A stretch of DNA of 64,000 nucleotides from Branchiostoma lanceolatum. Its lineage: Eukaryota > Chordata > Leptocardii > Amphioxiformes > Branchiostomatidae. The notes under the pieces were generated by a model. It did no database searches. It was not told the DNA's origin and saw nothing but the letters and a program-made list of their open reading frames with translations. Of this stretch, positions 4,301 to 59,262 are shown piece after piece. The stretch lies in the NCBI RefSeq assembly GCF_035083965.1, contig NC_089723.1, positions 32,057,193-32,121,192 of the forward strand, written 5' to 3'. A program made the position numbers and the translations under genes. How positions within the stretch are numbered: position 1 is the stretch's first letter; each line of letters opens with the position of its first letter.

Positions 4301-7062
4301 GTATGTTTGGCTTTGAATCCTATCATCCTGAACTGTTTTCAATTTCTATTTTGATTTCCCATTCTCTTTTTAATCAAGAAAGATCTCATTAGATTTTGAG
4401 ACCAGTATTTAAGATTAGAGGGACTGATTCCATTGACTGCAGCCATATGTAATCCATTCTTCAGGCAGATATATGGTAATATATTCTATTACAGATTAAG
4501 GAATTGATTGATATCAACAGCAATACATAGTTTTCTAATCTCTTCCCTGCAGTGTGTCATGGTGCTTCCTACAAAAAGCGGTTATTATCCATGATGCCAA
4601 GGCTGAAAGTTCTGGATGGTGAGTCAAAACAAATCTGGAACCTTTCTATGTGCCGATACAAATGCATGGCCAGAAATTAGAATAATTATTGTGCTCTACT
4701 GTTTGTACGTTTGTAAGTTTTCTACATATTCCTAACCTTCTGTAATTATAAAGTAAATGCATGGTTGTTTATTGTATACTTTGCAGCAGCACTAAGACTA
4801 AGTGAGAGTTATGCAAGGCTTCAACAAAGCTCAGTGTACATGTATTTTAAATCTTACAAAAGTACATAGCAACGAGGCATGCCTAAGTCAATGGATACTG
4901 GTGTCATGAGGAAGGTTTTATGTTTCACTCCTTGGCTGTTTATCCTTCCAGGTGAGGTGTTGTCAGGTAAAGGGTCTGAGGTGTTCAAGATATGCTCCGA
5001 GATTGATGCCGCCTTGCAAGGTAGGACAACAAAAATGAAGCACGTTCCTTTGCTGGGGGGATCCCTATGCAACTTTACTTTTGAAGTACCATTCATGCTT
5101 TGTCAGATCTATTTACTTCTCTTGCATCTATACACAGTGGATGTAGAAACATGATGCCTTTGTCACTCTTGTAATCAACTGTTAAGTTGTAGCTCCTCAC
5201 TGTAGCAATGCTAGCCTTGAAGAAAAGTTATACCATGAACTGTAGCAAGAACACGTGTAACACTGTTATACTCCTCATCTGTCCTCCAGCTACAGAGAAT
5301 GGATCTAGCAGCACCTCTGGTCTTCCTCTGGTAGATAACTTTCTACTGTCTTTAGAAGATTTTAGCTGCCTCACAGAATATACGGGATAGTTCTTCCGTA
5401 TACCTATAAGCATGATAATGCATGTGTTAAAAGTTTTGTGATGGGTCTATTGTTTTCTTTCACAAACCCCTTTTCACCCCCTCCCTTCAACTTGGCAGCT
5501 GCACACGACTCTGGACTCTATGCCATAAATACAAGTAAGCCCCCTAGTGGTGCTAGTGGTGAGTGCAGTGTGCAGTTTGTTGGTGTGGCTGGTGTGCATT
5601 TTGCAGTGATTGTCCACTAATGATAGTAAATTCCCACACCCTTAGGTAACCTTAGGGCTTGCTGACTAAACACAAACTGTTAACGACTGTACGTGTAGAA
5701 TTTTGAGTTTGAAGCCTGTGCACCTACACTAGCACTGCAAAAGTGGCAAACCATGCTATGTGTGAAAAAAAATATGTAGTCTGAAAATAAATACATGCAC
5801 ATGTATACACAAGAGATATATCAGGTAGCAGTCATCTAAGGCAAATTAACCCAACCAGAAGGCAAGTATTAGTAACACAAGAATTGCTTTGTAGCTGTTT
5901 TAGATCTGCATAACCAGTAATGGATTGATACCTTAACCTTTTTGTAGTGTATATTTACTAAGTGCCAGCTAGATCAAATAGAACATTTCCCTTGACCTTG
6001 AAACTGTTGAATTGGCATTGCCCTGCCTCCATGAGAAGTACAAGTTTTGGAGGGAACAAAATCTGTAACTGACAACCACCTGTTCCTGCAGTACTAATGC
6101 AAGAGTGTAGGGGGAGCTAATGTGTGGCAGAGAGAGAGACACTAAATCTTTTTAACTATCAAAAGCAAGGACATTATGTAGTCCTTGTCAGAAGTAAAAG
6201 GTATTTGAATATCAGGGGCAACTGTAATCCTATTTAACATGACACACTAAGTTTGGAAATAAGTTTAGAAACAAGCTTCACTTTGATTTCTATTTTGTAC
6301 TGCAGTTTCCCATCACTTTGTTCTCTAAGGTCAGGATCTAGCTAACCACTCCCAGCACATTTTCTCACTATCCATGACATGCACAACATGTCCTGATAAT
6401 CTATTTAGTTGTGTGAATTATGAATGCTGTTGAGACATGCACTCTTAATCGTTGATAGGCACACCCACTAGTGGCCCAATCCCAGAAATGAGCAAACCCC
6501 AGCCCTGGTTTGCCAGTGACTCCCTGAGGTTGAAGGACAGTAAAGATCAGGATGCTGCCATAGATGATGTTACCAAGAAGTTCAAGGGTAAGGAATCAAA
6601 GTACTTGGTCACCCTATTATCCTCCTAACCCAATGCTGACATACATCTATCCTGTATCAAATAATGTACGGATTATATAGTACAGCAGAGCTAGGACATA
6701 ATAATGATAATACGATGACTTATTAAATGTAATGTCCTTGAGCATAGATTTTCAATGTGTTTAATGTATGTACATGATACATAAGTTCCAAATACCTGTC
6801 CTTAATTTATTTTGCAAGAAAATTGCTATCATAGACATTCAAAGAAATTTTTCCAAGTTGGCTTGTTAAAGCCTTAATCTAAGGTAGCTAAATGTATAGA
6901 CAGCACAAGTCATGTGACAACTGCTGTTTATCATATCATACAGATGTGTTGGTAGACTGCCAAAGGCTCCAGGAAGAGGGTCAGAGGGCACTGGACCAGG
7001 TCAAGTCATCATCTACCCAGCAAGGCATTGAACATCTGAAAAATCTAGACCTCTCCATGTAA
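1318..7062 (+). CDS. LRRC61: LRRC61, leucine-rich repeat-containing protein 61
   Basis: Exons: 1318-1345, 2334-2435, 3075-3221, 3648-3708, 3982-4067, 4553-4618, 4952-5020, 5290-5319, 5499-5558, 6459-6587 and 6944-7062; 897 nt, 298 aa. All junctions are GT-AG and the phases agree. The order matches vertebrate LRRC61 as I remember it: an N-terminal TGEF-like stretch (here SGEFELDSI), then INDLGCIGECTNLQHL, LRR-type repeats (LNVSMNDIS, LDISANRIT, LNAAGNLIS), a C-terminal cap (LSMMPRLKVLDG) and GKGSEVFKICSEIDAAL. The end contains a short helical segment (QRLQEEGQRALDQV). It is probably a cytosolic scaffold; its biochemical role is not known to me. Exon 8 could instead run to 5330, but only the end at 5319 keeps the frame. 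It is longer than the human protein (about 259 aa) because of a low-complexity Ser/Pro linker in exons 8-10. Confidence 0.9.
1795..1905. repeat. Three palindromic GACAGGAT-ATCCTGTC units
   Basis: Three near-identical palindromes of the form GACAGGAT(C/T)ATCCTGTC stand about 30-45 bp apart. Two are flanked by extra complementary bases (CTGCTGACAGGAT / ATCCTGTCAGCAG). They lie in LRRC61 intron 1. They could fold as separate hairpins or pair with one another. They may be a decayed MITE. Confidence 0.6.
2067..2290. repeat. Dispersed repeat, copy 1
   Basis: The stretch runs from CACCAGGGTACATAATTC to GTGGATTAATGTTAC. It is similar over about 200 bp, in the same order, to 7080-7283. It lies in LRRC61 intron 1, just upstream of exon 2. 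The family is unknown; no terminal repeats are clear. Confidence 0.6.
2445..2620. mobile_element. MITE inserted at the LRRC61 exon 2 splice donor
   Basis: This 176-bp element has 67-bp terminal inverted repeats (2445-2511 and 2554-2620) that differ at one position. It is flanked by a perfect 9-bp duplication GTGAATGTC (2436-2444 and 2621-2629). Nine-base duplications are typical of Mutator-like elements, so it is probably a MULE-derived MITE. The first two bases of the duplicated target are the GT of the LRRC61 intron 2 donor, so the insertion left a donor-like GT on each side. Near-identical arms mean it is young. Confidence 0.85.
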
Positions 7063-19052: not shown

Positions 19053-21561
19053 AGTTGTATTATGATTGTCTCAATTTCCCATTGGTTGTTTCGTATTCCA
19101 TTAACTAACCATTTATTGCAGTCGCTCTTTTGATAGAGGCTGTGTCCTGGAAAACATAAAACCAAACCAGTCTCAGGAACAGTCCATTTTTATTACTTGC
19201 TTTCCTGTTCGCCATCTCGTCTGAACGTGTGTATCCTTATATCATGTACCGTTCTTGACTTTTCCAGAAGAATAACTAGTATGCTAGAGTACCACTTGTG
19301 TTACTGGCTTGTGTTACTCGGACTTGATATTGAACCATACCTGGTAACTCTGGTTGTCACAGCTGCAGCAGTTGTCCGAACCGCCGGCTTTACAGCAGGG
19401 GCAGACGGCACAACACGTCATGACGGCGGTGGTGATGGACAGACCCGCCTCCAGCAGGGCCAGGAGGATCAGCAGCGCGTCCATCACTAACGGTACCTGG
19501 GAAGTAGAACCCTTTACGATTTTTCTGTCATCATCACACTTTCCAAAGAGATCTTAAGGTTTTACTTTTTGATGTGAACGAAACATATTTTTGCATAAAT
19601 TTAAAACAAAGCCATCGTTCGTATTAGAACACCATAGGCTACAGTATTTACTTCATTCTCTGGAATGCTGGTTTTGTTGCACTACTATTAATGTCGACTG
19701 GCTGCTCTAAATGTTCCATGTGTGGTTTGGAAAAGGTTTTACCGTGTTGTGACAGGGTACGTAGCTTCCGGAGATCCAGCACCACCGTGACGTTCTCCAT
19801 TGGTCCCAGCTTACCGCAACGGCCGCGAGCCACAGCATGACAGAGGTGAAGAACGCCGACAGGATGGACAGGACCATGAAGGCGATCATCTGTAAAATGC
19901 AAAGAAACGGACTTAAGATAAGTTACTATTTTCATTGAAGCCTCGATATATAGTACTTGATGTAATTATTCGATGCAGTCTTTCTTGAAAGGGATTTGTT
20001 ATGAATCGATAGAAATGTCAAGTAGACGGAAAATGAGCTTTCGTCATACCCAAGTGGTTCTTCAGTCTGATAAAAAGTTTTCCATATTGCTGGGCAGTAG
20101 TGTGCACTTTCCCCGAGAAAGTTAGGGACGGATATCCTCCATTGCAGACTCATTCTGGCTGTTTTTATTTACGTTTTTTTTCTTTTTTCTTATTGCTGGC
20201 CGAAACGAGAAAACGGTAAATTGAAGAAAAAAGGCCGGAAGGAGTCTGCAACGGAGGCTAAGGAATGTAGCGTTTGACTCACCATGCAGGTAGTCTTGCG
20301 GACCGCTGCGAATATGCCGACGATTCCGGTAGAAAGGAACTTGGCGTGAAAAGAAGGAACGTAGTAAGTGAATATGTTTAGAATGGATCTATCTAACGTT
20401 ACATTTAGCTCGGATTCTCTGAGTCGGACAACATAGATGACATGCCCAGCCTCTGTGTACTGTTGCAAATGTTGCAACCTGACCATTACTCGAGATGTTA
20501 GAACTTAGTACATAGTGTCCTCGCTCCAGGCTCGTTTGTAAAATACTTTGAGCTGTATCAATACAAAAAAAAGTTGGCTCTATGCACCACGTGCAGGAGG
20601 ATAAGTGAGTGAGTGAGTGTATCAATACTTGTATAATGGGATGCCAGTGTAGCCGAGTATCAAGGGAAGCACAAGCCTTACCAGCGCTCCGATCCAAATG
20701 GGATACCCAGTGTAGCTGTTGCTAGCCAGAATCACGATGATAACGACGCCCAAGACGATGGCGATCCCTCCGCACACCACCTGTGTGATGGACAGGGCTT
20801 TGGCGGCGGAATTGCCGAAACATCTCGGCGAGCGAGCGGGCTGCTGCTGGAACATGGTGGTTCTTTCTAACTTCACCACTGAAGAATAAGGCATGATGTT
20901 GTAAGATTCAGAAAACATTCCATTCTGACATGTTGTTACATGGCACTGATATTCTGAACGCTGCTGTGGTGCTAAATATGACAAGAGTCGTACGTTTCTA
21001 ATAGCGTCGCACTCTGCTGTAAACATGCCGCCTGGTACTAGTATTGCCCTTAAGGTCTGTCGCGCTTCGCTGCAATGGAATCCGGTCAGGCAGGTTGAGG
21101 TCAACAGCAAACACCCGAGTCTCGCTATTTACTGTCGCCAGTTCTGTTGTAGTTTTACCTCGCCGCTCATGTAGGTACGCTGTTTACTTGGTCGAGCAGC
21201 CTTCGTATCCCCTGTTTGGCCTATTGAATCAGTTAGTCGAGCCTGAGATTACTGTTTCTGACTTATAAAGAAGAGATGCTGCTTCAGTGAGCATTAGTTC
21301 AGTGCCCAGAAGTGGTCCATGTGGCTTAGCATTGAGCAAACTCGTTACAAAAACCTGATCACAGCTAGCTTCGGATACGATGACAAATGTTGCTTTCTCC
21401 TATATTGGCCTTGGAGGATGGATTGGCCTTAGCTGTCTTTTCGGTCACGCCTAAGCGAAATTGGAAGGCGCCAACTAGCAATCACGGTTCATCATGATAC
21501 TCAGTAAGATCTAAGAATGTTCCTATTCTAACTCAGTATGCTGATTTATGTATAAAGGTAA

Positions 21562-21840
21562 TTGGTGAAGCCTTCGTTGTCCATGCTGGAGATTCAAGTT
21601 CACAAGAATGCCACCTACAACAGTTTGAAACAGCACAGACTAAAGTTTGATTGGCTACGTGATCATTACCAACTTCTCATTAATACTTCCGTGTCGATTT
21701 GGTCCCTTTCCTGTCGCCATATGGCTTGCTTAAACCACCATTTCCTTCTTTATGCTACGATGAATGCTTTAATTTTGTTTAAACACCAGTTAACACGCAT
21801 TTCGTTCATAATCACAGCAAATTGTGAGACATTCTAAAAC
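21562..21840. repeat. Conserved intron 1 block of type 1 genes, copy A
   Basis: This stretch is related to 26157-26440 and 36557-36856. It lies just downstream (in the transcribed sense) of a likely non-coding first exon. All three copies keep GATTGGCTACGTGATCA, which reads as a CCAAT box on the gene strand. Plus-strand open frames across the copies look alike but shift relative to one another, so I do not call a gene. Confidence 0.5.
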
Positions 21841-21851
21841 GAGTACTACGT

Positions 21852-21940
21852 ACCTGGTGTCTGGCGGTGACTGCATGCGAGGAAGACGATCCTTATTGTC
21901 TGACGTCATGCGCAGTTAGTTGAAAGGTCAAAGCCCCGGG
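21852..21940 (-). promoter_or_regulatory. Likely promoter and non-coding first exon end, gene A
   Basis: On the gene strand, CACCAG|GTACGTAG gives a strong donor at 21852-21853. Upstream of it lie a perfect CRE TGACGTCA (21901-21908) and AAAGGTCAAAGCCCC (21923-21937), a DR1-like nuclear-receptor site of HNF4/RXR type. The same order and spacing recur upstream of B and D. Confidence 0.45.
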
Positions 21941-22118
21941 GTACTCATCAAGGCCGCGAAAGCACGATTGTCTCTGTTTGCAGAACTGGTAGATCAGTAC
22001 CCTGTTTATGTTACCTCTATAACTTTGCTGGGAAATGAACTAACCATGCGCTTTAAAATTTATTCAGAAACGTTTTCCAGAAGCAACGCCTGCCATACAA
22101 AATGAATTTATAGCTAGT

Positions 22119-22525
22119 GATGAACAGATGTTTGAAATGCAAAGTATCATTTCAAAAAAGGCACTACTATTTTCTCTGAAAGAGATGCAGAAGATATCAC
22201 CATGCGTCTTTTATTAATGCTCCCCGCATTCTCTTTGTCTTCATTACATGGATGGAGCTCTACACTTCATGTTGAAAACATCGCATGTTGGGGTCTAAAA
22301 ACTTCCAATCGCTAATTTACAGTGATGAACAGATGTTTGATACGCAAAGTGTCATTTAAAAAAAGGACTGCTAATATCTGTGAAAGAGATGCAGAAGATA
22401 TCACCCTGCGTCTTAGTATCAATGTCCCCCGTATTCTTTTTGTCTTCATTACATGGAAGGAGCTTTACACTTCATGTCGAAAATATCGCATGTTAGTTTC
22501 GAACTTCCAAGCACTAACCATACAT
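22119..22525. repeat. Tandem duplication, period about 205 bp
   Basis: GATGAACAGATGTTTGA starts at 22119 and again at 22324. The following ~200 bp are similar (both hold GATGCAGAAGATATCACC and TCTTTGTCTTCATTACATGG). It lies between the promoter of A and the 3' end of B. Confidence 0.7.
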
Positions 22526-22731
22526 ATATTTACACAGTTTGGTCTTATCGATAGTCGATAGCAAAACTCACACATAGTTAGCATTATCTGTGACAACCAG
22601 TCCACTGATACTAAACCATACCTTAAGAGCAATATACCAATGGCTGTCGCCAAAGCAGGACAAGTTGCATTATTCAAGTTATAAACAGTCGCACTCATGT
22701 TATTATATCTAGGCTAAAACAGTTGTATTGT

Positions 22732-22737
22732 TTTATT
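22732..22737 (-). terminator. Polyadenylation signal candidate, gene B
   Basis: AATAAA on the minus strand lies about 10 bases after the stop codon of gene B, implying a very short 3' UTR if used. Confidence 0.3.
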
Positions 22738-22746
22738 CATTTTCCG

Positions 22747-25578
22747 CTATTCGTCAATAAGAGGGACATCATCCTCCTCCTGTGCCTGAAAGGCTTGGTT
22801 CACGCCAGGAGCTCCGGGATCAGTAGGCTGGTAACCGGGCGGCGGGGACACGGCCAATGGTTGGGCGGTGGTCTCATGCTGGGGCACGGTCGGCTGCTGC
22901 TGGGGCTGAGGCTGCACAGGGTACGGGGAGGACCCGGCCTGTGGCTGTGAGGCGTTGGGCTGCTGGAACTGGACCTGTGACACAGGCACAGACTGAGCGC
23001 GTGGCTGCTGCTGACTTGCGGCTTGTGGCATGGGTATGGGGGTGGATGTGGCGAAGACATATTGGATGTTACCTGTAATAGATGCAGAAAAGGGTTACGT
23101 TTGAACAGGGTACATTGTACGATCAAGACAGTCACACATTTTAGAATTTTCTTAAAGTTAAAATTACATCATTTGTACGATAGCAGTGCAAAAGTCATTC
23201 TACTTTTGTGTAGTACCAAGGAGGTTGGTCGTACCAAGGTGGATCTCTTCTGATGACATCTGTGGCAGCACTTATCGAGTTGACAATGTACGAGGGGCTA
23301 TCGTTCTATTACGTAACGTCAGGTAAAACTTACCACCGTGTCCGACAGTTGGCAGTGCTCGGATCATCTGAGGCTGAGCATGTTGTACAGGAGCGCCTCC
23401 TTGCGCCTGTTGCCCTGCCGGGATGAGGATAACGTTCCCTTGCGGCTTGGGACCCTGTCCGGCCCCGACGTTCCCCTGGACAGCAGCCATGTTGGCAGGT
23501 GTCTGTGTGACGAGCAGCGGTTGTTGGGCCATGGCTCCTGCGGGAAGGGCCGTGACGTGTTGGGGCTGGCTTGCAGGGAACGGTGTCATGGCGATGGGCT
23601 GCCCCCCCTGCATGGCGTACTGACCGGGTATCTGAACCAGTCTGCCGTCTGCGCCAACCTGATAGGCAACTGCAGGTGGCTGGAAAAAATCAAAGTGTCG
23701 TATCATTCCTGTCCTGTTTTGTTGACAATACTTTGTCGGAGAAAAAACAAACAGGGCATGCATTGTCAACGGAGCAATCTTCAATCAAGTTTTGCAAGTA
23801 TGGGTGTGCCTTACTACTGGTTATTCCGCATTCCTTTTCGACTGTTGATTATTACCATCCCTTCCTACAGAGGCTGTGCAAAGACGTAGCAAAACATCAA
23901 ACCAAACATCTCATGGACAACCCGTTTTCATTTCTTGCTTGTTTTATAGTCTGTTCGTTATCTAGTCTGACCGTGTGTATCCTTGCATCCTCATGGCATG
24001 GACTTCAGTACTTGACATTCCGCCGAAAAATGGCGCCGGGTACTATTTGATGTTACTATGTGTTACCTACTTAACATTAAACATAGTGTTCACCTGGTAG
24101 CCCTGGCTGTCGCAGCTGCAGCAGTTGTCCGAACCGCCGGCTTTACAGCAGGGGCAGACGGCAAAACACGTCATCATGGCGGTGGTGATGGACAGACCCG
24201 CCTCCAGCAGGGCCAGGACAATCAGCAGCGCGTCCATCGCTACACGGGCACCCTGGAAAGTACAACGATTTTTCTGTCAATATCAAACTTCCGAAAGAGA
24301 TCTTGAGGTTTTAATTTTTGCTGTGAATGAAAACAAAATTTACATCAATTCAAACAAAGCCATCGTTCTTATCAGAACACTGTAAAGTACAGTATTGAAT
24401 TTACCCTCTGGAATGTTGTTTTTGTTGCACTACTCTTAATGTAGACTGGCTGCTATAAATGTGTGGTTCGGGAAAGGTTTTACCGTGTTGTTACAGTAGC
24501 TCTGGATCTCCCAGCACCATCTCCATCGATCGTAGTCTACCGCAGTGCCCGCGAGCCCCAGCATGATAGAGGTGAAGAAGGCCGACAGGATGGACAAGAT
24601 CATGAAGGGTATCATCTGTAAGTTGTAAAGAAACAGACTCGAGGTACTATTTTGTTGAATTACGATATGTTGCATTTGATGTAGTCTTTCTTGAAAGGAA
24701 TTTGTCATGATGGAAATCCCAAAGAGACGGAAAACGAGCTTTCTTCAAGTGGTTCTTAAGTCTGATAAAAAGATTTCCATATTGCTGAACAGCGCACGCT
24801 GTCCCCGAGAAAGTTAGCAACGAATACATCGTTTGACTCACCATGCAGGTAGTCTTGCGGACCGCTGCAAATATGCCGACGATTCCGGTAGAAAGGAACT
24901 TGACGGGGGAAAAAAGGAACGTCTAGTCAGTAAACATGTTTAGAATGGATCTATCTAACGTTACATTTGATACACAGAAAACTCTGATTCTCTGAGTCGG
25001 ACAAAATAGATGGCATCACAGTGACCAATATTAATGTTACAAAAATTGTTGTCTGCAAACTCCCGCTGTCCGGGGATCTTATGGCCCCCTCTCCGCAGAA
25101 GGGCGGGCGCTGATGGGCCCCTGAAGCGCGATTCAATCAGGCTACAAAAGTTGGAACCTGAACATTACTCGATATGTTGGAACTTAGCATAGTGTCCTCG
25201 CTGCTCAAGCTCATTTGTGAAATGCTTTGAGCTGTATCAATACATAAAGTAGTCGGCTCTACGCACCATGTACAGTCCTGAGGATGAGTGAGTGAGTGAG
25301 TGAGTGAGTGAGTGAGTGAGTGAGCAAGTGAGTGAATCAATACTTGTATAATGGGATGCCAGTGTCGCTGTGTTCAATGAAGGCACACGCCTTACCAGCG
25401 CTCCCATCCAAATGGGATACCCAGTGTAGCTGCTCCCGGTCCCAAGCACGATGATGACGACGCCCAGCACGATGGCGATCCCTCCGCACACCACCTGTGT
25501 GATGGACAGGGCTTTGGCGGCGGAATTGCCGAAACATTTCGGCGAGCCGGCGGGCTGCTGTTGCTGCTGCTGGAACAT
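22747..25578 (-). CDS. MS4A/CD20-like four-pass membrane protein gene B (type 1)
   Basis: Exons on the minus strand: 25396-25578, 24842-24898, 24484-24615, 24094-24252, 23334-23679 and 22747-23072; 1203 nt, 400 aa. TM1 is about residues 24-48 (LSITQVVCGGIAIVLGVVII), and TM2 about 56-73. RKTTCM at the exon 2 end matches the MS4A pattern after TM2. TM3 is about 83-106. The loop 107-128 carries WCWEIQSYC (two Cys) and an NNT sequon. TM4 is about 130-152, then a Cys cluster (CPCCKAGGSDNCCSC) that could be palmitoylated. The tail 178-400 is Pro/Gln/Ala-rich with PPPGYQP (PPxY, a WW-domain ligand) and ends EEDDVPLIDE (DxxxLI sorting motif). Family assignment rests on the TM1-TM2 pattern. MS4A proteins modulate membrane signalling and trafficking; the exact role here is unknown. 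Confidence 0.82.
25284..25336. repeat. GAGT tetranucleotide microsatellite, copy B
   Basis: About a dozen GAGT units in intron 1 of the gene B coding region. Open frames reading SLTHSLTHS are artefacts of it. Shorter in A (about 20605), similar in D. Confidence 0.85.
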
Positions 25579-26038
25579 TGCGGTTTCTTAATCGACCCTT
25601 GAAGAATGAGGAAACAGCGTTGTAAGATTTAGGAACGTAACATACATATGACTTCTGACATGGTGTAATAATGAGCACTATTAAATATTCTGAGTGCTAC
25701 TTTGCCCGGCAAAGGCATTGGTGATCATTGGTACGAAATACGCCAAGTATCGTTTCTACTATAGCGTTGCACCCATCTGTTTGCATGCCTATTGAGAACG
25801 CTTTACTGCCCTTGTAAGTGACCTCGTCGGTCCTCGCTACAATGGAATCCAGACATGCAGGGTGAGGTCAACAACAAACACCCTAGTCACGCTGTTTACT
25901 TTGTCGTCAGTACTGCTGTAGTTTAAACACGCTTAGTTACGGGTGGTTTTGGATATGATGACAAGAACTAGTGTTTTTTGTGTTCATCGTTTCGTAGCCA
26001 TAGTTGTCCTTTTGGTCAGGCCTGAAGGAACATGGAAG

Positions 26039-26092
26039 ACGCCAACTAGCAATCAGGGTATATTATAATATACCCTGATTGCTAGTTGGCGT
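26039..26092. repeat. 54-bp perfect palindrome in gene B intron 1
   Basis: ACGCCAACTAGCAATCAGGG and its exact reverse complement meet at an AT centre with no spacer. The related positions in A (about 21470) and D (about 36497) have only the single-copy GCCAACTAGCAATCA, so B gained an inverted duplication. Confidence 0.9.
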
Positions 26093-26156
26093 AATATTAC
26101 AATACTCTTTTGTCTTAAGAACTAAAGGTGTCTCTCGTTTGACTCAGTATGCCTGA

Positions 26157-26440
26157 TTGGTGGTTAGTGAAACCTTCGTTGTCAATGCAGGAAATAAACG
26201 TTCACCAGAATACCACCTACAAGAGTTTGAAACAGCTGAACTAAAGTTTGACTGGCTACGTGATCACCACAACTTCACATTTACTTCCGTGTCAGTTTGT
26301 TCCTATACCTGTCTTGTTTTGGCTTGTGTGAACCACCTATTTCTTCTTCATGCTAAGATGAATGCTTCAAACACCAATTTTACACGGATTTCACCCATAA
26401 TCATAGCAAATTGTGGGACATTCTCAAGGGAGTACTAGTC
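26157..26440. repeat. Conserved intron 1 block of type 1 genes, copy B
   Basis: Nearly identical to 36557-36856 and related to 21562-21840. Holds the same inverted CCAAT box near 26250. Confidence 0.5.
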
Positions 26441-26445
26441 TACGT

Positions 26446-26523
26446 ACCTGGTACCTGGCAGCACAGCGCGAAAGTCGACACCTATTGTCTGACGTCATGC
26501 GCGAGTTGAAAGGTCAAAGCCCC
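26446..26523 (-). promoter_or_regulatory. Likely promoter and non-coding first exon end, gene B
   Basis: Donor TACCAG|GTACGTAG on the minus strand (GT at 26446-26447), CRE TGACGTCA at 26490-26497 and DR1-like AAAGGTCAAAGCCCC at 26509-26523. Confidence 0.45.
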
Positions 26524-26539
26524 CAGGTACTGTACTCGC

Positions 26540-27937
26540 GACATCGTTTGCAAAGCTGGTAGATCAGCAGACTGTTTATGTTAGATCTGCAATTTTGATG
26601 TGAAATGAACTAACCATGCGCTATATTCAGAAAAGTACCAAAAGTAACACTCATAATACCAGATAAACCTAGTGTTTAACAAATATTTCCAAGGAAACCT
26701 CCTTGATGTTTCGTAGTATTATTTCACAGGGGTTCTATTACCTATGAAATCAGTAAAGGGGGGTCCTATGTGTATTGAATTTCGAACCAAAAACCTCTTC
26801 AAACGCGTTACAATTAGGTGAAGGTCTTCTGATATGTAACACGTTTGAGGAAGCTGATTCCTAGATGATACGATTTTGATAATTGAAGAGAAAATCAGTT
26901 TTAAAAGGCTTTTGATCAGCATTAGCACTGTGAACATCCTGTCTGTAGGAACAAACAGTGGTATCTGCACTTTCCTCCCCGCCTCAGTAGAATAAATTCG
27001 ACAAATGTTTACTGCGCAACGCATTGTTACCTTCGCCGAGAAGGTTACATCTAATTATACATATCATCAAACCAGATAAGCAATGATTGCGAGGTTGACA
27101 GTGAGATAGGCAGTGCATTCTGAGACCACCACCACTTGCAGACTTTGTCCCATCATTTAAAACACACACTTAGCAGCAGTTAAGGCTTCACAAAGGATTA
27201 CTAGTACTTCACACAAGATGTGCTTAACTCCAGGAGTGCTATCTGTGAAAGAGGTCCAAGATCCAGAGACATATTTCCAACGTCTGACGTTATAATGTCT
27301 CCCATTACGTGGGTGAAACAAGGACCTTCAACTATTTTAGTTTTCTTATAGTAGATTCGATGTTATCGTGTTAATCGACATGTAATTGACCCTAGTGCTT
27401 AAGTTTTGTTTGACAGCAACGCCCTTCTAAGATTTCACTTATAAGTGCCCGTTCACTGTATATGTTTTGTGTCAGATGTTTCGAAAGTAAAGTAAGTGTT
27501 CATCCAACGTAACAGTAATTGTTGCTATTCATTGTATATTTATACTGTAGGGCAAAAGAAGTCTCTATGCTGTCTGGCCATGGCATCATTTGTATCTCAA
27601 AAATGTAAAGAATGTGCTGTTGATGACACATCTGTAAGAGACGTATGTGTTGCCTTCTTGTCGGAATCAAAACTGTTAATTGAACGTAACAGCAATTGCT
27701 CATATTGATAATTGCATTGTTTGACATAAGACTATAATGCTGTTTGACAAACATTTTTCATTTCAAAATATGAAGACCATGCTATTGCTCATTCCTGAAA
27801 GTTCTCTGGCCTAATCATGATGCACGTCTTTGGTCTACGGAATATTGTTGCGTTGAGTGATACAAGCGAGTAGAGCCTATAGCTATGCATGGTTTCACTG
27901 GATGTGGTCGTCGGCGGATCGCGGGCAAGGTACCCGC
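26540..27937. other. Spacer between B and C
   Basis: No coding exon found. About 26930-27937 is homologous to the sequence 3' of D, E and F, so it is the 3' flank that travels with type 2 gene ends. Plus-strand open frames at 27496-27708 are shared with 37932-38144 only because of the recent duplication. Confidence 0.5.
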
Positions 27938-30597
27938 TTAATCTTCGATGAGAGGCGCATCGTCTTCCTCTGTCGGCATGGCCTGGTTGGCAGCGGCGTG
28001 ATGCGCGTCAGACTCAGCAGGCTGATAGCTGGGGGGAGGGGAGGGTCCCGTGGGTGGGGCAGAGACTTGTCCCTGGGGTACGTTCGGCTGCTGTTGTGGC
28101 TGAAGTTGTGCTGGGTGCGGGTAGGGCACGGCCTGGCTGGGCTGCTGGAACTGAACCTGTGGCACGGACTGTGGCTGCTGCTGACCTGCTGCTTGTGGTA
28201 TGGGTGTACCCGCGGCGATGACATACTGGATGTTACCTGAGGCAAACAGAAGACGTTTTCAGCGCATGTACATGACTAAATGATGCGTACTAGTATCTTG
28301 TTCTTAAGCAGGTGTAAATTTTAGCTACCTAGTATGTGATAACTGAGATATCAGAATCTCTCCAGCTGGTTTTTGGTTTCTTTCTGTTTTCAAAACTTAC
28401 CATGCCCACCTGTTGACATCGGTTGTGCTATTTGATGCTGACGAGATGCAGGAGCTACATTCTGCACCGGGACAAACACAACGTTCCCGTGCGGCTTGGG
28501 ACCCTGTCCGACCCCGACGTTCCCCTGGGCAGCAGCCATGTTGGCAGGTGTCTGTGTGACGAGTAGCGGTTGTTGGGCCATGGCTCCTGCGGGAAGGGCC
28601 GTGACGTGTTGGGGCTGGCCGGCAGGGAACGGTGTCATGGCGATGGGCTGCCCCCCCTGCATGGCGTACTGACCGGGTATCTGCACCAGTCTGCCGTCTG
28701 CGCCAACCTGATAGGCAACTGCAGGTGCCTAGAAAGATATTTACCGTCGATGAATCTCCAGTTTGTGCAATAAGAGTGATGAAAATCTGACTTCTTCAGG
28801 TGGCAATGCAGAATTCTATATTCCTAGAATGTGATGGAAATCTTATCACTGTTGATACCCCAGATAGTGCCCAAGACATATGTCAGTTTAGTTGTTTGAC
28901 ATATTTGATGTATATGTCTTATGCCCCCAGTATTTTGACATGGTCAGAAGGGTCTTCAGTTTTCCTTTTTCTTTAAAATGTTGTCTTAGCCTGCAATAGC
29001 GGGGCCTTACCTGGTATCCACTGTTGTTACATGTATCACAGCAGGTACAACTGTCCGTACTTCCCTCGGTGCAGCCCGGACAGATGGCGTAACACGTCAT
29101 CACAGAGGTGGAGATGGCCAGGCCCAGCTCCAGGAGGGCCAGGAGAATCAGCAGGACGTCGAACGCGATGATGGCGCCCTAAAATCAGATACAACTCTCG
29201 TCACAAAAGCGGGCAGAGTACCATGATTAATACTTTCAGGCTGAGAAGACTGCCTTACTTCAAGGTGATTCAAACCTTGCTTACTCCAATGTGCATCTAG
29301 GGTGGTTAAATCCCACCAGGAAGTTACTTAAAAGACCTATAGTATGTAAGAGTTATCTCCATTCACAGTTGAGCCTCATGGTTCCAATTAGTTGGTAACT
29401 GGGAGACCCCGGTTCGAATCCTGGAAGGGTATCCTTTACCCTGTTGTAGTTGCACCGTCTTTCGGGAAGAGACGTAAAATGGGGGCCCCGTGTTCGAGGA
29501 GGTGCCTCGAGCGCGTCACAACAACCTCATCACTGGGTACCTACTGGCTGTGATGATACAACACGCCAAACACGGTGAATAATTATTTCTATGTGACCGT
29601 ATGTGATGAATGACACCGTATGTGGTGTATGGTGTCAAAGCATCAATGTCAACGTACTACAGGGTGGTTATAGAAAAGGGCTTACCGTGGGACATACGCT
29701 ATATGGCAAATTGAAGCACCATCCCCAGACATCACTTGAAAGTGCGATGGCTGCAAAGACGAGGGTGACGGTTCCCGACAGGATGGACGAAAGAATGGAC
29801 AGGGCCATCAGAGGTATGATCTGTGCACAAAGAGTAGCATAGCATTAACGATAACAGAACAAAGAGCAGAGCCAGAGGGAAGCTGATTCAGTTATATCTT
29901 GCCAACATGGTATTTTTTATAACAATGGAACTATATGTATCGTATACAACTTGGGTCTGGACCAAAAGCGACAGGTCCAGAAAGCGAGCAGGCCCACTTG
30001 ACTCGACCCCTGCTTTGCTTGCCCGCTGCCACTGAACTAGGCAGCGCTGGCATTTAAACTGTCATGAATGTATGCAGTATAGTTCACTTCCTTAGACTTT
30101 ATGTGTACATGGAACATCCTATCAGAGGCCTATATCAGCAGGTAAGATATGAGTGAATAGTACTGCTGACAGGCATGGTGGCTAATTCAGTGCAACGATA
30201 AAGGTGGACTTACCATACATTTGGTCTTGCGTTTCGCCGCAAAGATGCCGATGATTCCAGTAGAAAGGAACTAAAGGTACGACAATGATATTTATCATGA
30301 CAATATGAAGGGTACTATAATCATTCAATTGTGAATTCTAATAGCACTCATTACGTACCCTAGGCCTGTTGTCAAAGTCCTGAATACCAAAAATAAAGGA
30401 CCAACAGTGTTGTGTCTTACCGACGCTCCAGTCCAAATTGGATACGCAGTCCGGAAAAGCTCACTACCCGGTATCATGATCGCGATGCCCAAAAGAATGG
30501 CGAGCCCTCCACACACTATCTGTGTAATGGACAACGCCTTGACGGTGTTCCCGCCAAAACATTTCGGAGTAGGGCGGGGTTGCTGGAACATATGCAT
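27938..30597 (-). CDS. MS4A/CD20-like four-pass membrane protein gene C (type 2)
   Basis: Exons on the minus strand: 30421-30597, 30214-30270, 29686-29820, 29011-29178, 28401-28728 and 27938-28236; 1164 nt, 387 aa. Start MHMFQQPRPTPKCFGG; initiation at the second Met (MFQQ) would match type 1. TM1 is KALSITQIVCGGLAILLG. Exon 2 is the same 19-residue module (IFAAKRKTKCM). TM3 is MALSILSSILSGTVTLVF. The loop has a Trp/Cys pattern (WGWCF) and Cys again near its end. TM4 is DVLLILLALLELGLAI, then a Cys-rich stretch (CPGCTEGSTDSCTCCDTC). The tail carries PPPSYQPAE (PPxY) and ends EEDDAPLIED (DxxxLI). Intron 3 holds a SINE. The exon 5-6 half is almost identical to gene E. Confidence 0.82.
29370..29566 (+). 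mobile_element. tRNA-derived SINE in intron 3 of gene C
   Basis: A tRNA-like head carries a B box, GGTTCGAATCC, near 29411. It is followed by a body with GAAGAGACGTAAAATGG and CCGTGTTCGAGGAGG that resembles the body of the SINE at 34144-34558. Gene E lacks this stretch, probably by deletion, because F keeps part of the flank. Confidence 0.65.
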
Positions 30598-31644
30598 GGC
30601 TCTGGAAAGACACGAGATTCCAGGGAGAAATTGTGCATTTAGACATGGATGATATTGTACAACGTGAGTAACCGCTATGACTATAGTGCAATAAAAAACT
30701 TGAGAGTGAAGAAAATGTATTTGTGCTTTGTAGAAGAATGTGCTGGCTTTAATTCAGACAGTATGAATCGGATTATTACGTTTTCCCAGTCTTTAGTTGT
30801 CAGAACTGCATTCCAGCTGTAGTTCATTCGACTTCCGCAGGTCGTCATTTGGAAAACGGCATAAAATGACAAAACGCCGCTACCAAATTTTTACTGTTTG
30901 ATTTTTCACATTTGGTAGGTTGTTTCCGGTTTGATTTCAACACATCTGTTAATCACGCCCATCCATGTCTTTAATGGCGTCAACATGCACATAATGTCTT
31001 TAACATGGGAATCCAAACTGAGAAAATGAGCTCATTGATAATGAAAGTTGGATTGCTTAATATTACATGACCTGATAATCATAAACCATGGCTACACAAT
31101 CTACAGTCCACAACAACTGGCTAATTTGTATCACCAGTTGTACAGTAAACGTTACCCAAGCCTTTAAATGCATCTCGTCTATGATATTACACACCACTGA
31201 AAATAGAAAACGCAAGAAGCCAAGACATGATCTTGGGATCAGGCCGGCTTTGTCAGATTTCGTCGAATGCGCCCTTCAGCCATTTTGGACCATGGACGAA
31301 CGCCCACCTGCTGAACAGTCTGACCCCAAATAACCGTGACCCCTGCAAAGTATGTGATACGTGACGTATACTTATAGTTAATCTTTGCATGAACCTAATG
31401 ATGACATAACCAGTATGTACGATGTGTGAAGTATCGGACTACATATTTTTCTACACATTTATCTTACCTTAAATTCCACCAATTAACGTTTGTCAAACGT
31501 ATGTTCTAACAAAATGAAGACAACTTGTTTGCGACTGCTTTAAGTTCACGTCATGTACGCTTTCTCACTTCCGAGTGTGCGGCAATGTAACACGAGTTTC
31601 CGTTCAGTGTAACATACACAAGAAGTCGAAGTCAAAACACTACA

Positions 31645-51300: not shown

Positions 51301-54300
51301 TTCATCCGTTAGTATTGTTAATCTTTGTACAGTACAGTACTGTTGGGATCATTACCTTTGACAAGGGGCTTGGCATTCATCATTTGAACCAAGCGGTACT
51401 GACGCCTTTCCAAAGGCTTTGCTTTGGCCATGTCTTTATATTGCACTCTTGTCAAGCTGGGATAGCAAACATCTGGGTCCTGTATAGAAAGAAAAATGGA
51501 GTAAAAAATGGAGTCTATGAGTCCAACAGCATTTTTGTCACGTGTATCTTTTAATAGGAATCTATATGTGGATCATGCCTTGTAGACGAATCAACTGCAA
51601 TAGATAGTCTAAGTCTGATGTTTTCCCATTTGTCTAATGAGTTTACATTTTGCAAAATGTGTTGTTTGGTCAAATATTTTACCCGTATTCATCAACTTCC
51701 CAATTAGCAGATAAATCTTGATTTGACTGGGGCCGGTGTTGTCAATATGATGGAGACAAACTGTTCGTCTAGGCACAAAAATGTTTTGTCAATTTGGTTG
51801 ATGGAAAGGCTGCAAGAGAAGGGAGTAAACTGAGGAGAAGAAGGAAGAGTATACCTTCGAGGACAGAGCAGGAGAATATCAACACAGCTGAAAATTGGAG
51901 TCATTACACTGAAAACGTTATTGGACATGTTTGAGGGAGGAGGACCTAGGTGATTAATGTTTTAAGAAGATAACTCTTAATAAGGCTTATGACAACTGCA
52001 AGATGAAGACACATACAATATCAGAATAGACCTACTTGGCTCTGTGCAATGACTCTGTCAACCCAGGATAAGCACCTCTCCATGGACGATTGGGACAAGC
52101 TGATTGGTCCAGATTCAGTGGTTCTGCCTGCTGCTATGTCTGTCCTGTCATCAGGAACAAAACTCTGGTAGAACATGTCACCCATGGAGGTCATCTGGTG
52201 ATTGGGAAATGTAAGGATTAGACTTTTAGAGTCATTTAATCAACAAATGTTACAAAAAAGGTGTTTCAATTTTAGAGGTTGAACAAAGGAAAGTTGATGA
52301 GGAATGTGAAATTACCTGTAAAGCAGTAAAACCTGAGTCTTTGCTTCCGTGCCTCACAGAACACAATCCAATTAGCGGTTTTTGAAGTCTTCTTTCCAGA
52401 TATCTGTTTGAGAAACTACGTTGCCGAGGTGTCAAACATGGCAGCCAACTGCTGACTTTGGATACTGAAAATGGTTGGCTCACAGACACAGGTGGGCAGC
52501 TTCCCTCATTTACATACCGAAAACAGGTGGTTTCCTGAGGTCTCTGATTGGCTAAAAGGATCACATGACTGTTCAAATCGTGGGTCGTATGGCTGACAAT
52601 ATCCATGAACACTGGAGGTGACTTCATCATGTGACTCCACTTCACTAGAGCATTCTGGGGGAACCTCTCGTCAACGATGACCAGAGAATGTTTCATGGCG
52701 ACGATATGTTGAAAACAGTTTGTGGGACAGACTCTACTGAACATGACTCTCTCTCCCTTCATTGTCCACTTTGAAGGAAGGGAAAAGAGGGGTCCTCTGT
52801 CGTTCTGTGGTCTGGACCTGACATCTTTGAGTTCCACTCCAGTGCTGTCTGAGTAGATTAGTAGGCGGGGGTGGGATCCAAAGTGACAGGCTCTCTGTGG
52901 GCTGTCAGACACAAAGTTCAGGGTGCTGTCCTGATCAGGCACAACCTGCTGTAACCTGAGGGCAGAAATAAAGGACTGTGTCAGTCATGTGGAGTCAAGG
53001 CTACATCCTGTCTTGATTTAAAAAAATCTCTAGTCACTATCCAACACCACACTCTTCATATTTTACAAAAAGAAACTAAAACTTTAACAACACACTTAGA
53101 ATCCTTACATATCAATAAAAAAGCACACTTTCAAGTTGTGATTTTTCTTAATCCCTTTCAAGCTGCCTAGCAAATATGTGCCCTCCCTTTGTAGGCTCTG
53201 ATCTCTTTATTAACCATGTCATTGACAGAGGCCCTCATGAGAGGATATAATGCTAGAAAGCAGCTTATATATACTGCTAGGATAACACCTAGGATAAAGA
53301 CGGAAAGATGCAGAAGAGCTTACATAAGTATAGCGCTCTCCAATTTTGATGTGAAAATTTGCACTCACCTTCCATTTGCCCACAGTAAATAAGTTGCCCC
53401 AGTTTCTGTAGAGATGACAACCTCTCCTGCAATGTAGGGACTCAAAGCTACAGAAGTTGGACTCTTGTCAAACTGCACTGTCTGAAGCACCTCTGCTTTT
53501 CCTTGGTCTCCCTCAGTGGGGTCAAAGGACAAAGTGGTACAGTGGTAGTTGCTTCTCACTGCAAACATGTCCTGATTTTGAACTTTTACTGACTCACACT
53601 GAAGAATTCTGCCATTCAGAGAGAACTGCTGAGTGCTGAGATCCAGCACCACTTCTGTGTTTTGCGAAATGACATCGTCATCGCTCTGTTTTACCGACAG
53701 TGTTCCAACATTGAGAACATCTAGGGAAGGAGAACTAGGGTATAGCAGCACACCCTTGCAGTCATGAGCAGTACTGCAGAGCTCCTGGTAGCACACACTC
53801 CCTCCTGTCTCATCTGAATCTGCTATCTGAAAACACAAGATATTGGTTGACTCAAAATGCAGGGAATGTACAAATACCAAAAAGTCAATAAATCCAAAGC
53901 CAAGGGACAAAAAGAAGTTACTTGAGACGTTGTAACAATGACATTGGTCAATGCTGCAATAGCTGCATCCATGCAACTGGTGGAATTGAACCATTTTGAA
54001 TCTCTAGAGAGCTTGCAAAATACAAATTTAGCATTACGAAAGCATGAGCTAGATATTCAATTTCCAACACATTTGTGCATAGATTTTCTGTTTTTCTGCA
54101 TCTTATTTCAGAGCTACAGTGTGTACATCTTGTACTTGTGTATGATGATCAGAACGAAGAGGTTATGGGCAGATAGCCACCTTAGTCAGAACAAACAAAA
54201 TCCTCGGACTTACTAATCTTTCCCTCCATCCTGTGAGGTCTTCGTTGATGTAAGTCTCCAGTAATTCCCTGGGTATGTCACAAAGCACATCATCTAGCAG

Positions 54301-56770: not shown

Positions 56771-57117
56771 AAACAAAACATCTTGATCTCCTGTGTTCCT
56801 CAGTTTTCATGGTCATCTCTTTCAAGCTAAACCTAACAGCCTATGTAATGATCGTGGAAAGTTTACGAACTAAACGTCCATCTTAGCAAACTACATGTTT
56901 GGGGCAAAGTCACGACTTGTTCCTGGTCTCATAAAAAAAAATTATTGTCGTCGGCCATTTTGTGGTACCACGAAACTGGATGTTTACGTTTAAAACTCCC
57001 ATGATGCAGTGTAAAATTAGTTGAGCGAAATCGATAAAGCGGTGGCTCATGGGAATGTCATGAGTCTAAAACTGGGGTAAAAACATTGGCGGACATTTTG
57101 AAAGAAGAAAGCTGACG
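56771..57117. promoter_or_regulatory. Bidirectional promoter of TAF1C and ANAPC11
   Basis: The two start codons are 812 bp apart, head to head. A minus-strand donor GTAAGT (56769-56770) would end a non-coding TAF1C exon. GCCATTTTG at 56954-56962 resembles a YY1 site, common in TATA-less bidirectional housekeeping promoters. No TATA box seen. Confidence 0.55.
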
Positions 57118-58712
57118 ATGAAAGTTACAGTGAAGAGTAAGTCCTCTGAAACATCCAAGTATCACAATAGATGCTCACGTGGGGGTATTCAAGATAAGAG
57201 CGAAGTTGCAGACTTATTTTCTTACGACGATATGGTGGACATATATGTCGGTAAATCAGAAAATACTGTATTTCCGGATGATAATTTCTTATCCTTCAGA
57301 AAATTATGGGGAGGGGGGCTATGTTCAATTTTTATGTAAGCCCTTCTAAAATAATTTTGTAGGGTCCTGTTTGACCTGACAAGTTCCATGCTTTATTTAC
57401 AGCGATATCTATGAGTTGACAGTCAGCAGTTTCTTTGATTTTGCTGATATATGTGTATGATGTGAATAAATGTTTTTTTCTTAGATACAGCAAGGAGGTT
57501 AAATATTTAACCTCCTTGGATTCAGATATTACGTTCAGTTAACTGTTTATGAGGTGTTGAGTGAAAATGTTGAATATCAGACTCATACTTCAAAACAAGA
57601 CTTTGTTACAGAAGTTCCTGAATATGATTGTTTTTGCTCAAGCAGCAGTTGCAATTGGCTAATAGACTTTTTCTTCTCTTTTGTGCCTTTGCATTTTTGG
57701 ACTCTACCTCCGCGTTTCTGCTAGGGTAAGTCTTTCTTTACTCTTACTTTTTCTCCTAAAGGATTTTGTATCGAACATTCCACAATAAATGCAGGCAGCC
57801 CAAGCATTTAAGACGTAAAACAGAATGTTGATATTGTACTTCTAGCTTAGTCTAGAAAATAAATGTTACTGATATCAAGGTATCAAGGATATGATAATCT
57901 GATCTGATCTGATGATATCTGATGTTATCTGATTACAAGGACTTGCATGTACATGTATCCCAGTGAGTTTGATATAATCTGCTACCAGTATTGTTATACT
58001 CATAATCAGACAGTTGTTCAATGATTTAATACCACTTTTTCTAGCTGGACGGCTGTGGCCTCCTGGAGATGGATGGCCAATGATGACAACTGCGGCATCT
58101 GCCGCATGCCGTTTGATGCCACCTGTTCAGAATGCAAACTCCCTGGTGACGACTGCCCTCTAGGTAAGAAAATATATTTTATACTTAATTAAACACTGAC
58201 AAGCAGCCTTTATTATTATGCAAGTATTGTCTATCAAAGAACCTTATGCAATTTTTTCAAATGTGTATAGAAGGGGCATTAGTAATACTGGATATGGTTA
58301 CCACCCCTGTAGGGATGATTGATACTTTGTAATCAATAGACCACAATCTATTGACTTGTTGGGTTTAACAATGATGCCGAACAGAAGAACAACATGAAAT
58401 CAGGGAGTGAATATACAGTAGTCAGATTTAAGTTTACCTCCCAGCCCTATCCATCTTGTTATCATGCTTCATTTTTACCTTGTTGAATAAGAAAACCCAA
58501 TGAAATAACATGATATGGCCTTTGTTTAAGAAACAGTATAACAGAAGAAAAGCTAAGTGTGAGTTGTTGTTTAATTTTCAGTGTGGGGACAGTGCTCTCA
58601 CTGTTTTCACATGCACTGCATCCTGAAGTGGCTGAACTCCCAGCAGGTGAACCAGCAGTGTCCCATGTGTCGACAGGAGTGGAAGTTCAAGGACCATGAA
58701 ACAAGACATTAA
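57118..58712 (+). CDS. ANAPC11: ANAPC11, RING-H2 subunit of the anaphase-promoting complex, with a candidate 1-nt exon
   Basis: Exons: 57118-57136 (19 nt), 57725 (1 nt), 58045-58163 (119 nt) and 58582-58712 (131 nt); 270 nt, 89 aa. The start MKVTVK matches human MKVKIK, and the rest follows APC11 closely: W8, W14, [54 protein letters not shown]. Zinc-binding residues are visible as C23/C26, C34/C37, C44, C51, H53, H56, H58/C59 and C73/C76. With E2 enzymes this subunit catalyses ubiquitin transfer by APC/C. Exon 1 ends in phase 1 and exon 3 begins one base before TGG, so one base is missing. The site TCTGCTAG|G|GTAAGT supplies it and yields codon AGC (Ser7), split over three exons. The protein is 5 residues longer than human at the C-terminus (DHETRH tail). 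Confidence 0.93.
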
Positions 58713-58978
58713 GATTAACTAACACCTGTACATAGCTGTATCTATAGTCGGTGGGAGTGTACTGACGTCTCAACGGAGGACCCAACTCGCTCGTTGTGGC
58801 TGAAATACCACTAGAGGATATGCTGAACAAGCAACATCTGTCGAGCTGTGCTATATATATTTATTTCTGGGCTCCATCAATTCTACTACGGTACTGCCAT
58901 CAGCCAACAAACTCATGTGGCCAATAGGTTGGTTTGCCTGTTAGAAGAAGAGGCAAACAGGTAGCAATGGAACAAGGA

Positions 58979-59262
58979 TATGTTCATCAGTTGCTGAGCA
59001 TAGATAAGCGATCTCCATGAGGGCAAAATTGTATCAGCCAGCCAGAAACTTCAGCCCCTGTATGGGGCTGGCTGATACGATTTTGCCCCCGTGGAGATCT
59101 GCTTGGAGATTATCTATGCTCAGCAACTGATGAACAAATCATTGTTACTTGTTTACAAAATTGTATCAGCCAGCCAAAATCTTCAGCCCCCGTATGGGGG
59201 CTGGCTGATACGATTTTGTCCCTGTGGAGATCTGCTTGGAGATAAGAGCATAGAAAGATATA
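58979..59262. repeat. Compound hairpin repeat downstream of ANAPC11
   Basis: The outer arms (58981-59006 and 59111-59136) are perfect over 26 bp. Inside them, TTGTATCAGCCAGCC pairs with GGCTGGCTGATACGA. A second hairpin with the same core follows at 59155-59219, then a third partial copy of GTGGAGATCTGCTTGGAGAT. It would lie in the ANAPC11 3' UTR if the signal at 59909 is used. Confidence 0.85.

Follow-up and report, generated by a model that had tools for sequence, protein, structure and literature searches.

How is the reading frame of an animal APC11 gene to be closed, when the first two coding parts that are easily recognised in it leave one base of a codon uncovered between them? The gene lies in a stretch of 64,000 nucleotides of Branchiostoma lanceolatum DNA (NC_089723.1), the whole of which is called the window here, and occupies positions 57118-58712 of the + strand in four coding parts, one of them a candidate exon of a single nucleotide:

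57118-57136, + strand: coding exon 1 of APC11, MKVTVK plus A (first base of codon 7); aligns to MKVKIK of human APC11
57137, + strand: exon 1 donor, GTAAGT; 6.5 bits, with A as last exon base
57137-57724, + strand: intron 1, 588 nt; GTAAGT...TCTGCTAG; acceptor 8.5 bits
57725, + strand: candidate 1-nt exon, G, middle base of codon 7 (Ser, A/G/C); TCTGCTAG before, GTAAGT after
57726-58044, + strand: intron 2, 319 nt; GTAAGTC...TTTTTCTAG; donor 10.1 bits, acceptor 7.3 bits
58045-58163, + strand: coding exon 3, last base of codon 7 (C, then TGG), W8-L46 and first base of V47
58164-58581, + strand: intron 3, ordinary GT-AG; donor 9.0 bits, acceptor 4.6 bits
58582-58712, + strand: last coding exon, V47-H89 plus stop

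The locus encodes an animal APC11. Joined together, 57118-57136, 57725, 58045-58163 and 58582-58712 give 270 nt, i.e., 89 amino acids and a stop, and this product matches Pfam PF12861 with 121 bits (cut-off 25), while its residues 1-84 align gaplessly to residues 1-84 of human APC11 (5g04_B), at 156.3 bits and 75% identity. A gapless K-x-W spacing is common to this protein, to human APC11 and to the three RBX1 chains with printed alignments, one residue standing between K6 and W8 here, one (Cys) in human APC11 and one in each of the RBX1 chains. Exon 1 supplies only the first base of codon 7 and the exon at 58045 only the last, so that exactly one base is missing between them, across an interval of 908 nt. 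With G57725 left out, a frameshift at codon 7 leads to a stop after 45 codons, and the frameshifted product has no match among the Pfam families; judged from the sequence, the APC11 frame appears to be readable only with G57725. The stop of the skipped product (58161-58163) ends at the last exon junction, a position for which the usual distance rule does not predict nonsense-mediated decay. No further frame break is seen in the gene, a tblastn search of the window for a second APC11 copy matched only the exons of this gene at meaningful E-values, and introns 1 and 2, when compared with each other, have no significant similarity and so give no sign of duplication.

As in a spliceosomal 1-nt exon, G57725 is a single base between an AG and a GT with strong splice sites on both sides, and the reading frame of a conserved protein needs it. 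Its strength was scored with splice-site matrices which, like the branch-point consensus, are generic approximations and not species-trained, so that ranks weigh more than bits. On this scale it reaches 18.6 bits (acceptor 8.5, donor 10.1), which places it at the top of the 401 AG-N-GT sites that the two strands of the window contain (runner-up 14.0 bits), and also at the top of the 25 microexons of the interval that are at most 99 nt long, free of stops and able to restore the frame (runner-up 8.2 bits). If AG...GT cassettes of 1-31 nt are considered, three of the 15240 on both strands of the window reach 18.6 bits, and G57725 is the only frame-compatible one of the three, the others being 2334-2356 (23 nt) and 4952-4966 (15 nt), both on the + strand. 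When the 908-nt interval was shuffled 20000 times with its dinucleotides kept, a 1-nt site as good as this one turned up in 10 of the shuffles, and a frame-restoring exon of 1-31 nt as good as this one in 52. By chance, about 0.007 frame-compatible sites this good are expected per intron of such length, the site itself counted. Several claims of the preliminary description come through these results intact: that one nucleotide is missing between exon 1 and 58045 (by the K6-x-W8 spacing and the frameshift without G57725), that G57725 gives a 270-nt frame and an 89-amino acid APC11 (by the translation, PF12861 and the human alignment), that a serine codon would be split over three exons (A/G/C), and that the site next to GTAAGT is a strong one (first of 401, and matched in 10 of 20000 shuffles).

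The sequence ahead of the G is also arranged in a distinct way. Positions 57666-57722 (+ strand) form an AG-free, pyrimidine-rich stretch that lies between the candidate branch point and the acceptor of the 1-nt exon; the AG-free run before this acceptor measures 57 nt, as opposed to 29 and 16 nt at the other two acceptors of the gene, and the best match to the branch-point consensus is A57662, 63 nt upstream of the acceptor. A TGC stands directly ahead of the acceptor, at 57717-57724 (TCTGCTAG). Motifs of TGC type are binding sites of the neuronal microexon factor SRRM4, for which a single short motif is a weak indication. Repeats of at least 12 nt in 57100-58200 amount to a palindrome of 28 nt and two families of short direct repeats, and none of them overlaps the 1-nt exon. 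The palindrome is perfect, lies in intron 1 (57491-57518) and consists of two 14-nt arms with no spacer; its 10-mer CAAGGAGGTT, or the complement, occurs eight times in the window with differing flanks. A short tandem repeat of ATCTG type lies in intron 2 (57891-57933).

A few features of the neighbourhood may be added. Just downstream of APC11, at 58971-59243, inverted and direct repeats are nested in one another; their arms measure 37 and 34 nt, two units of 44-47 nt stand about 133 nt apart and are 93-96% alike, and the whole resembles a foldback or MITE-like element. On the minus strand, 52253-54003 holds ORFs with TAF1C beta-propeller matches (two of ten ORFs scanned), which point to a TAF1C-like gene upstream of APC11 on the opposite strand, one that possibly shares a promoter region with it. 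Farther away, also on the minus strand, repeated ORFs at 20625-30753 resemble CD20/MS4A-like membrane proteins; PF04103 is matched by two of the ten ORFs scanned, both under the curated cut-off, and the recurrence of similar ORFs from about 17 to 46 kb suggests a tandem array. These neighbours, like the identity of the gene product to human APC11, are in keeping with an animal genome. The two other top-scoring cassettes, 2334-2356 and 4952-4966, flank an LRR-encoding ORF and could be short exons of that gene.

Taken together, we consider it very probable that G57725 is a genuine constitutive 1-nt exon of an animal APC11, recognised by the U2-type spliceosome, and that the introns on its two sides would be removed stepwise, by intron definition. 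We infer splicing of the RNA through G57725, its constitutive use, the order of intron removal and the branch point A57662 from the arrangement of the sequence. Other explanations of the frame have to be weighed, and the serious one is a loss of the base in the assembly. In that case one base would be absent from the assembled sequence, or from a rare haplotype, most simply a G of the GG at the border of exon 1 (AAGAG/GTAAGT) or at 58044/58045; exon 1 would then join 58045 directly, and the intronic AG/G/GTAAGT would be a coincidence or an unused decoy. Several details speak for it: the exon 1 donor AGA/GTAAGT is of less than average strength and has A as its last exon base, which is uncommon (9% in the matrix used), an added G would mend the frame and better the donor at one stroke (GAG/GTAAGT, 11.5 against 6.5 bits), and the serine codon would come out identical. 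Yet it leaves unexplained why the best of 401 AG-N-GT sites should be found in precisely this intron (about 0.007 expected), and the gene shows no second frame break of the kind, which makes an assembly error, in our opinion, quite unlikely.

A second alternative does without any extra exon. The frame of exon 1 stays open for 67 codons into the intron and reaches an in-frame donor, TAT/GTAAGC at 57336, a trap for annotation comparable to the spurious extension of 10 nt that has been described for APC11 of Arabidopsis. Exon 1 could run through this open frame (57118-57336) to 57335 and join 58045 in frame, adding 66 residues; with a donor of 5.8 bits and a total of 13.1 bits it is the best of the eight in-frame single-junction models, and an automatic gene predictor may well pick it. 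These 66 residues, however, would be inserted exactly where the alignment to human APC11 and RBX1 is gapless, and the match to human APC11 would drop from 156.3 to 147.9 bits, with residues 1-4 lost. The insert has no match in PDB sequences (E up to 1) or in Pfam, and its GC3 of 0.35 equals the GC of the intron (0.35), as opposed to a GC3 of 0.67 for APC11; four neighbouring ORFs on the TAF1C strand have a GC3 of 0.46 to 0.55. A frame is open for 66 codons at 5.7% of the positions of the window, so that openness is by itself unremarkable. Such a longer exon 1 is therefore very unlikely. It does correct the preliminary description, which held that no GT-AG splicing joins exon 1 to 58045 in frame and so overlooked both the open frame and the usable donor at 57336. 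Its interpretation is partly supported on the whole: the candidate 1-nt exon passes every test made on the sequence, but the case is not as clean as it was put, given an exon 1 donor of 6.5 bits and other routes that keep the frame.

Those other routes include a first exon that has escaped recognition, another microexon, a donor of non-canonical type, or a start at Met17 with exon 1 unused. Formally there is room for them, as 353 two-junction models are in frame and Met17 sits in exon 3. Against them, exon 1 has the conserved MKVxxK start and a GTAAGT, a start at Met17 would drop the N-terminal segment common to human APC11 and RBX1, and the next-best frame-restoring microexon has 8.2 bits as opposed to 18.6; a route of this sort is hardly to be expected. 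The four best of the 353 models all take G57725 as a 1-nt exon, and the best uses the donor at 57137. The second and third join donors 57179 and 57251 to G57725 and fall behind by no more than 1.6 to 1.7 bits, a near equality of site scores by which the choice of donor rests on protein length and not on the sites. A minor (U12) intron was rejected by eye from the GTAAGT donors.

If G57725 is, as we believe, spliced as an exon of its own, the way in which this could happen is constrained by its size. One base is too small for U2AF/U2 and U1 to be accommodated together, and the two introns would thus have to leave one after the other. Should intron 2 leave first, the G would be fused to exon 3, giving a normal exon of 120 nt behind the acceptor; should intron 1 leave first, a near-perfect donor, AAGAG/GTAAGT, would be rebuilt in the style of recursive splicing, the donor next to G57725 going from 10.1 bits before the removal to 11.5 bits after it. 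The site has the abutting acceptor and donor of a recursive splice site, and a donor that is rebuilt once the upstream part is removed; the residue of 0 nt in a long intron is missing, since one base stays and the whole interval is of 908 nt. Of the two orders we somewhat favour the departure of intron 2 first, because its donor, at 10.1 bits, is stronger than the 6.5 bits of intron 1, because it is the shorter of the two, with 319 nt as opposed to 588 nt, and because there is a precedent in the microexon of potato invertase, for which removal of the second intron comes first (cited in PMC4674806). Recursive splicing is, in addition, reportedly repressed by exon junction complexes (PMC6224609), an effect that would work against a donor formed anew where two exons have just been joined. 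In either order, the predicted spliced sequence across exon 1, G57725 and exon 3 is AAGAGCTGG.

An arrangement of this kind could have originated by the loss of one base at an intron border (the G of AAGAG/GTAAGT), followed by rescue through a cryptic AG/G/GT site. By analogy with Fusarium, where the proposal is that a border base was lost and a cryptic AGGGT came to the rescue (PMC12940212), we regard this origin as likely. The rescue would have taken this form because the motif tolerates no other repair, and the weak exon 1 donor, with A as its last base, which was mentioned above in connection with an assembly error, also fits a border-base loss of the Fusarium type.

The consequences would go beyond one gene. 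In the literature searched, covered mostly by title and abstract opening, no report of a 1-nt exon from a nuclear gene native to an animal was recognised, and a search for work on APC11/ANAPC11 introns in amphioxus found nothing. Confirmation by RNA would make G57725, as far as this literature goes, the first spliceosomal 1-nt exon of a native nuclear gene in animals, and this in the very gene that provides the best-proven case in plants. An animal spliceosome would then be seen to handle a one-base exon constitutively in an essential cell-cycle gene, ancient and repeated origin could be told apart simply by comparing APC11 genes, and wherever a gene model seems to lack a single base, a 1-nt exon should be looked for before the model is called broken.

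Several known systems resemble this one in part. In the recursive splicing of Drosophila, as described in PMC8605326, ratchet points likewise have an acceptor that abuts a donor, and the donor is rebuilt after the upstream part has been removed; they lie, however, in long introns and leave nothing in the mRNA, whereas in our gene both introns are short and the mRNA would retain one base. The mitochondrial cox1 of placozoans, according to PMC5436844, is like our case in that a single-base exon restores a conserved codon in an animal gene, but its 1-bp exon lies between group I introns and is non-spliceosomal. A further case is human MPC1, whose account in PMC9929638 describes a 4-nt microexon with branch points at -68 and -63/-64, and a minigene that was spliced in HeLa cells with an exon of 4, 2, 1 and 0 bp; by the authors' own account, the human genome yielded no exon of 1 bp. 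The likeness lies in a very short constitutive exon with a length that is not a multiple of 3, a pyrimidine tract and a distant branch point (candidate -63 here), the difference in that the natural exon of MPC1 has 4 nt and its 1-bp form was engineered. By these minigenes an animal spliceosome is able to splice a 1-nt exon, and we suppose by analogy that it does so in the APC11 gene described here. The CYP621A gene of Fusarium, as presented in PMC12940212, also has AG/G/GT, an exon G that is the middle base of a codon, and a phase-1 border unable to join a phase-2 border; unlike ours, it is a fungal P450 gene with read support (18 SRA reads) and with conservation across 24 aligned genes.

A case in the same gene is found in plants. 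The preliminary description cites Guo and Liu (2015) for a 1-nt exon that is used constitutively in APC11 of Arabidopsis, and PMC4674806 confirms this: the authors proved the exon, A333, by cDNA and mutant constructs; they argue that a single base cannot be exon-defined from both sides, and favour intron definition and a recursive-type stepwise removal. A survey of plant microexons, in its account of the 1-nt cases, finds the APC11 exon in most land plants, together with a second case in VPS55, and its authors infer an early-plant origin (PMC8831610). The exons of that survey are like G57725 in their APC11 location, in the GTRAGT-like donor of VPS55 and in being missing from annotations; the section on APC11 and VPS55 describes plants and makes no mention of animal APC11 (PMC8831610). 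G57725 and A333 both consist of one base between AG and GT near the N-terminus of APC11, both are required by the frame and flanked by two short introns, and both are left out of simple gene models. They differ in the base (G here, A in Arabidopsis), in the interval (908 nt against 422 nt), and in that A333 is backed by cDNA and mutant constructs, whereas G57725 is known from the sequence alone.

Whether the two are of one origin, and possibly at one place as the preliminary description suggests, depends in part on where they stand in the protein. Arabidopsis APC11 starts MKVKILRW, and the codons for Arg carry G in the middle. No Arg codon has a middle A, and if this start is correct, the middle position of codon 7, where G57725 stands, is closed to A333. 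The plant protein so argues against an identical base, and what remain are a neighbouring position with later sliding, or an independent origin. Single scans for APC11 relatives in viral contigs (18 pattern matches) and in bacterial and archaeal genome contigs (33 pattern matches) returned no relatives. That A333 and G57725 descend from one early-eukaryote pair of introns set one base apart, which would persist unannotated in scattered animals and plants because the N-terminal segment tolerates no change in length, seems to us unlikely. A repeated origin in the same gene would, on its part, call for a reason, and we offer as a suggestion the same intolerance of the N-terminal segment to changes in its length.
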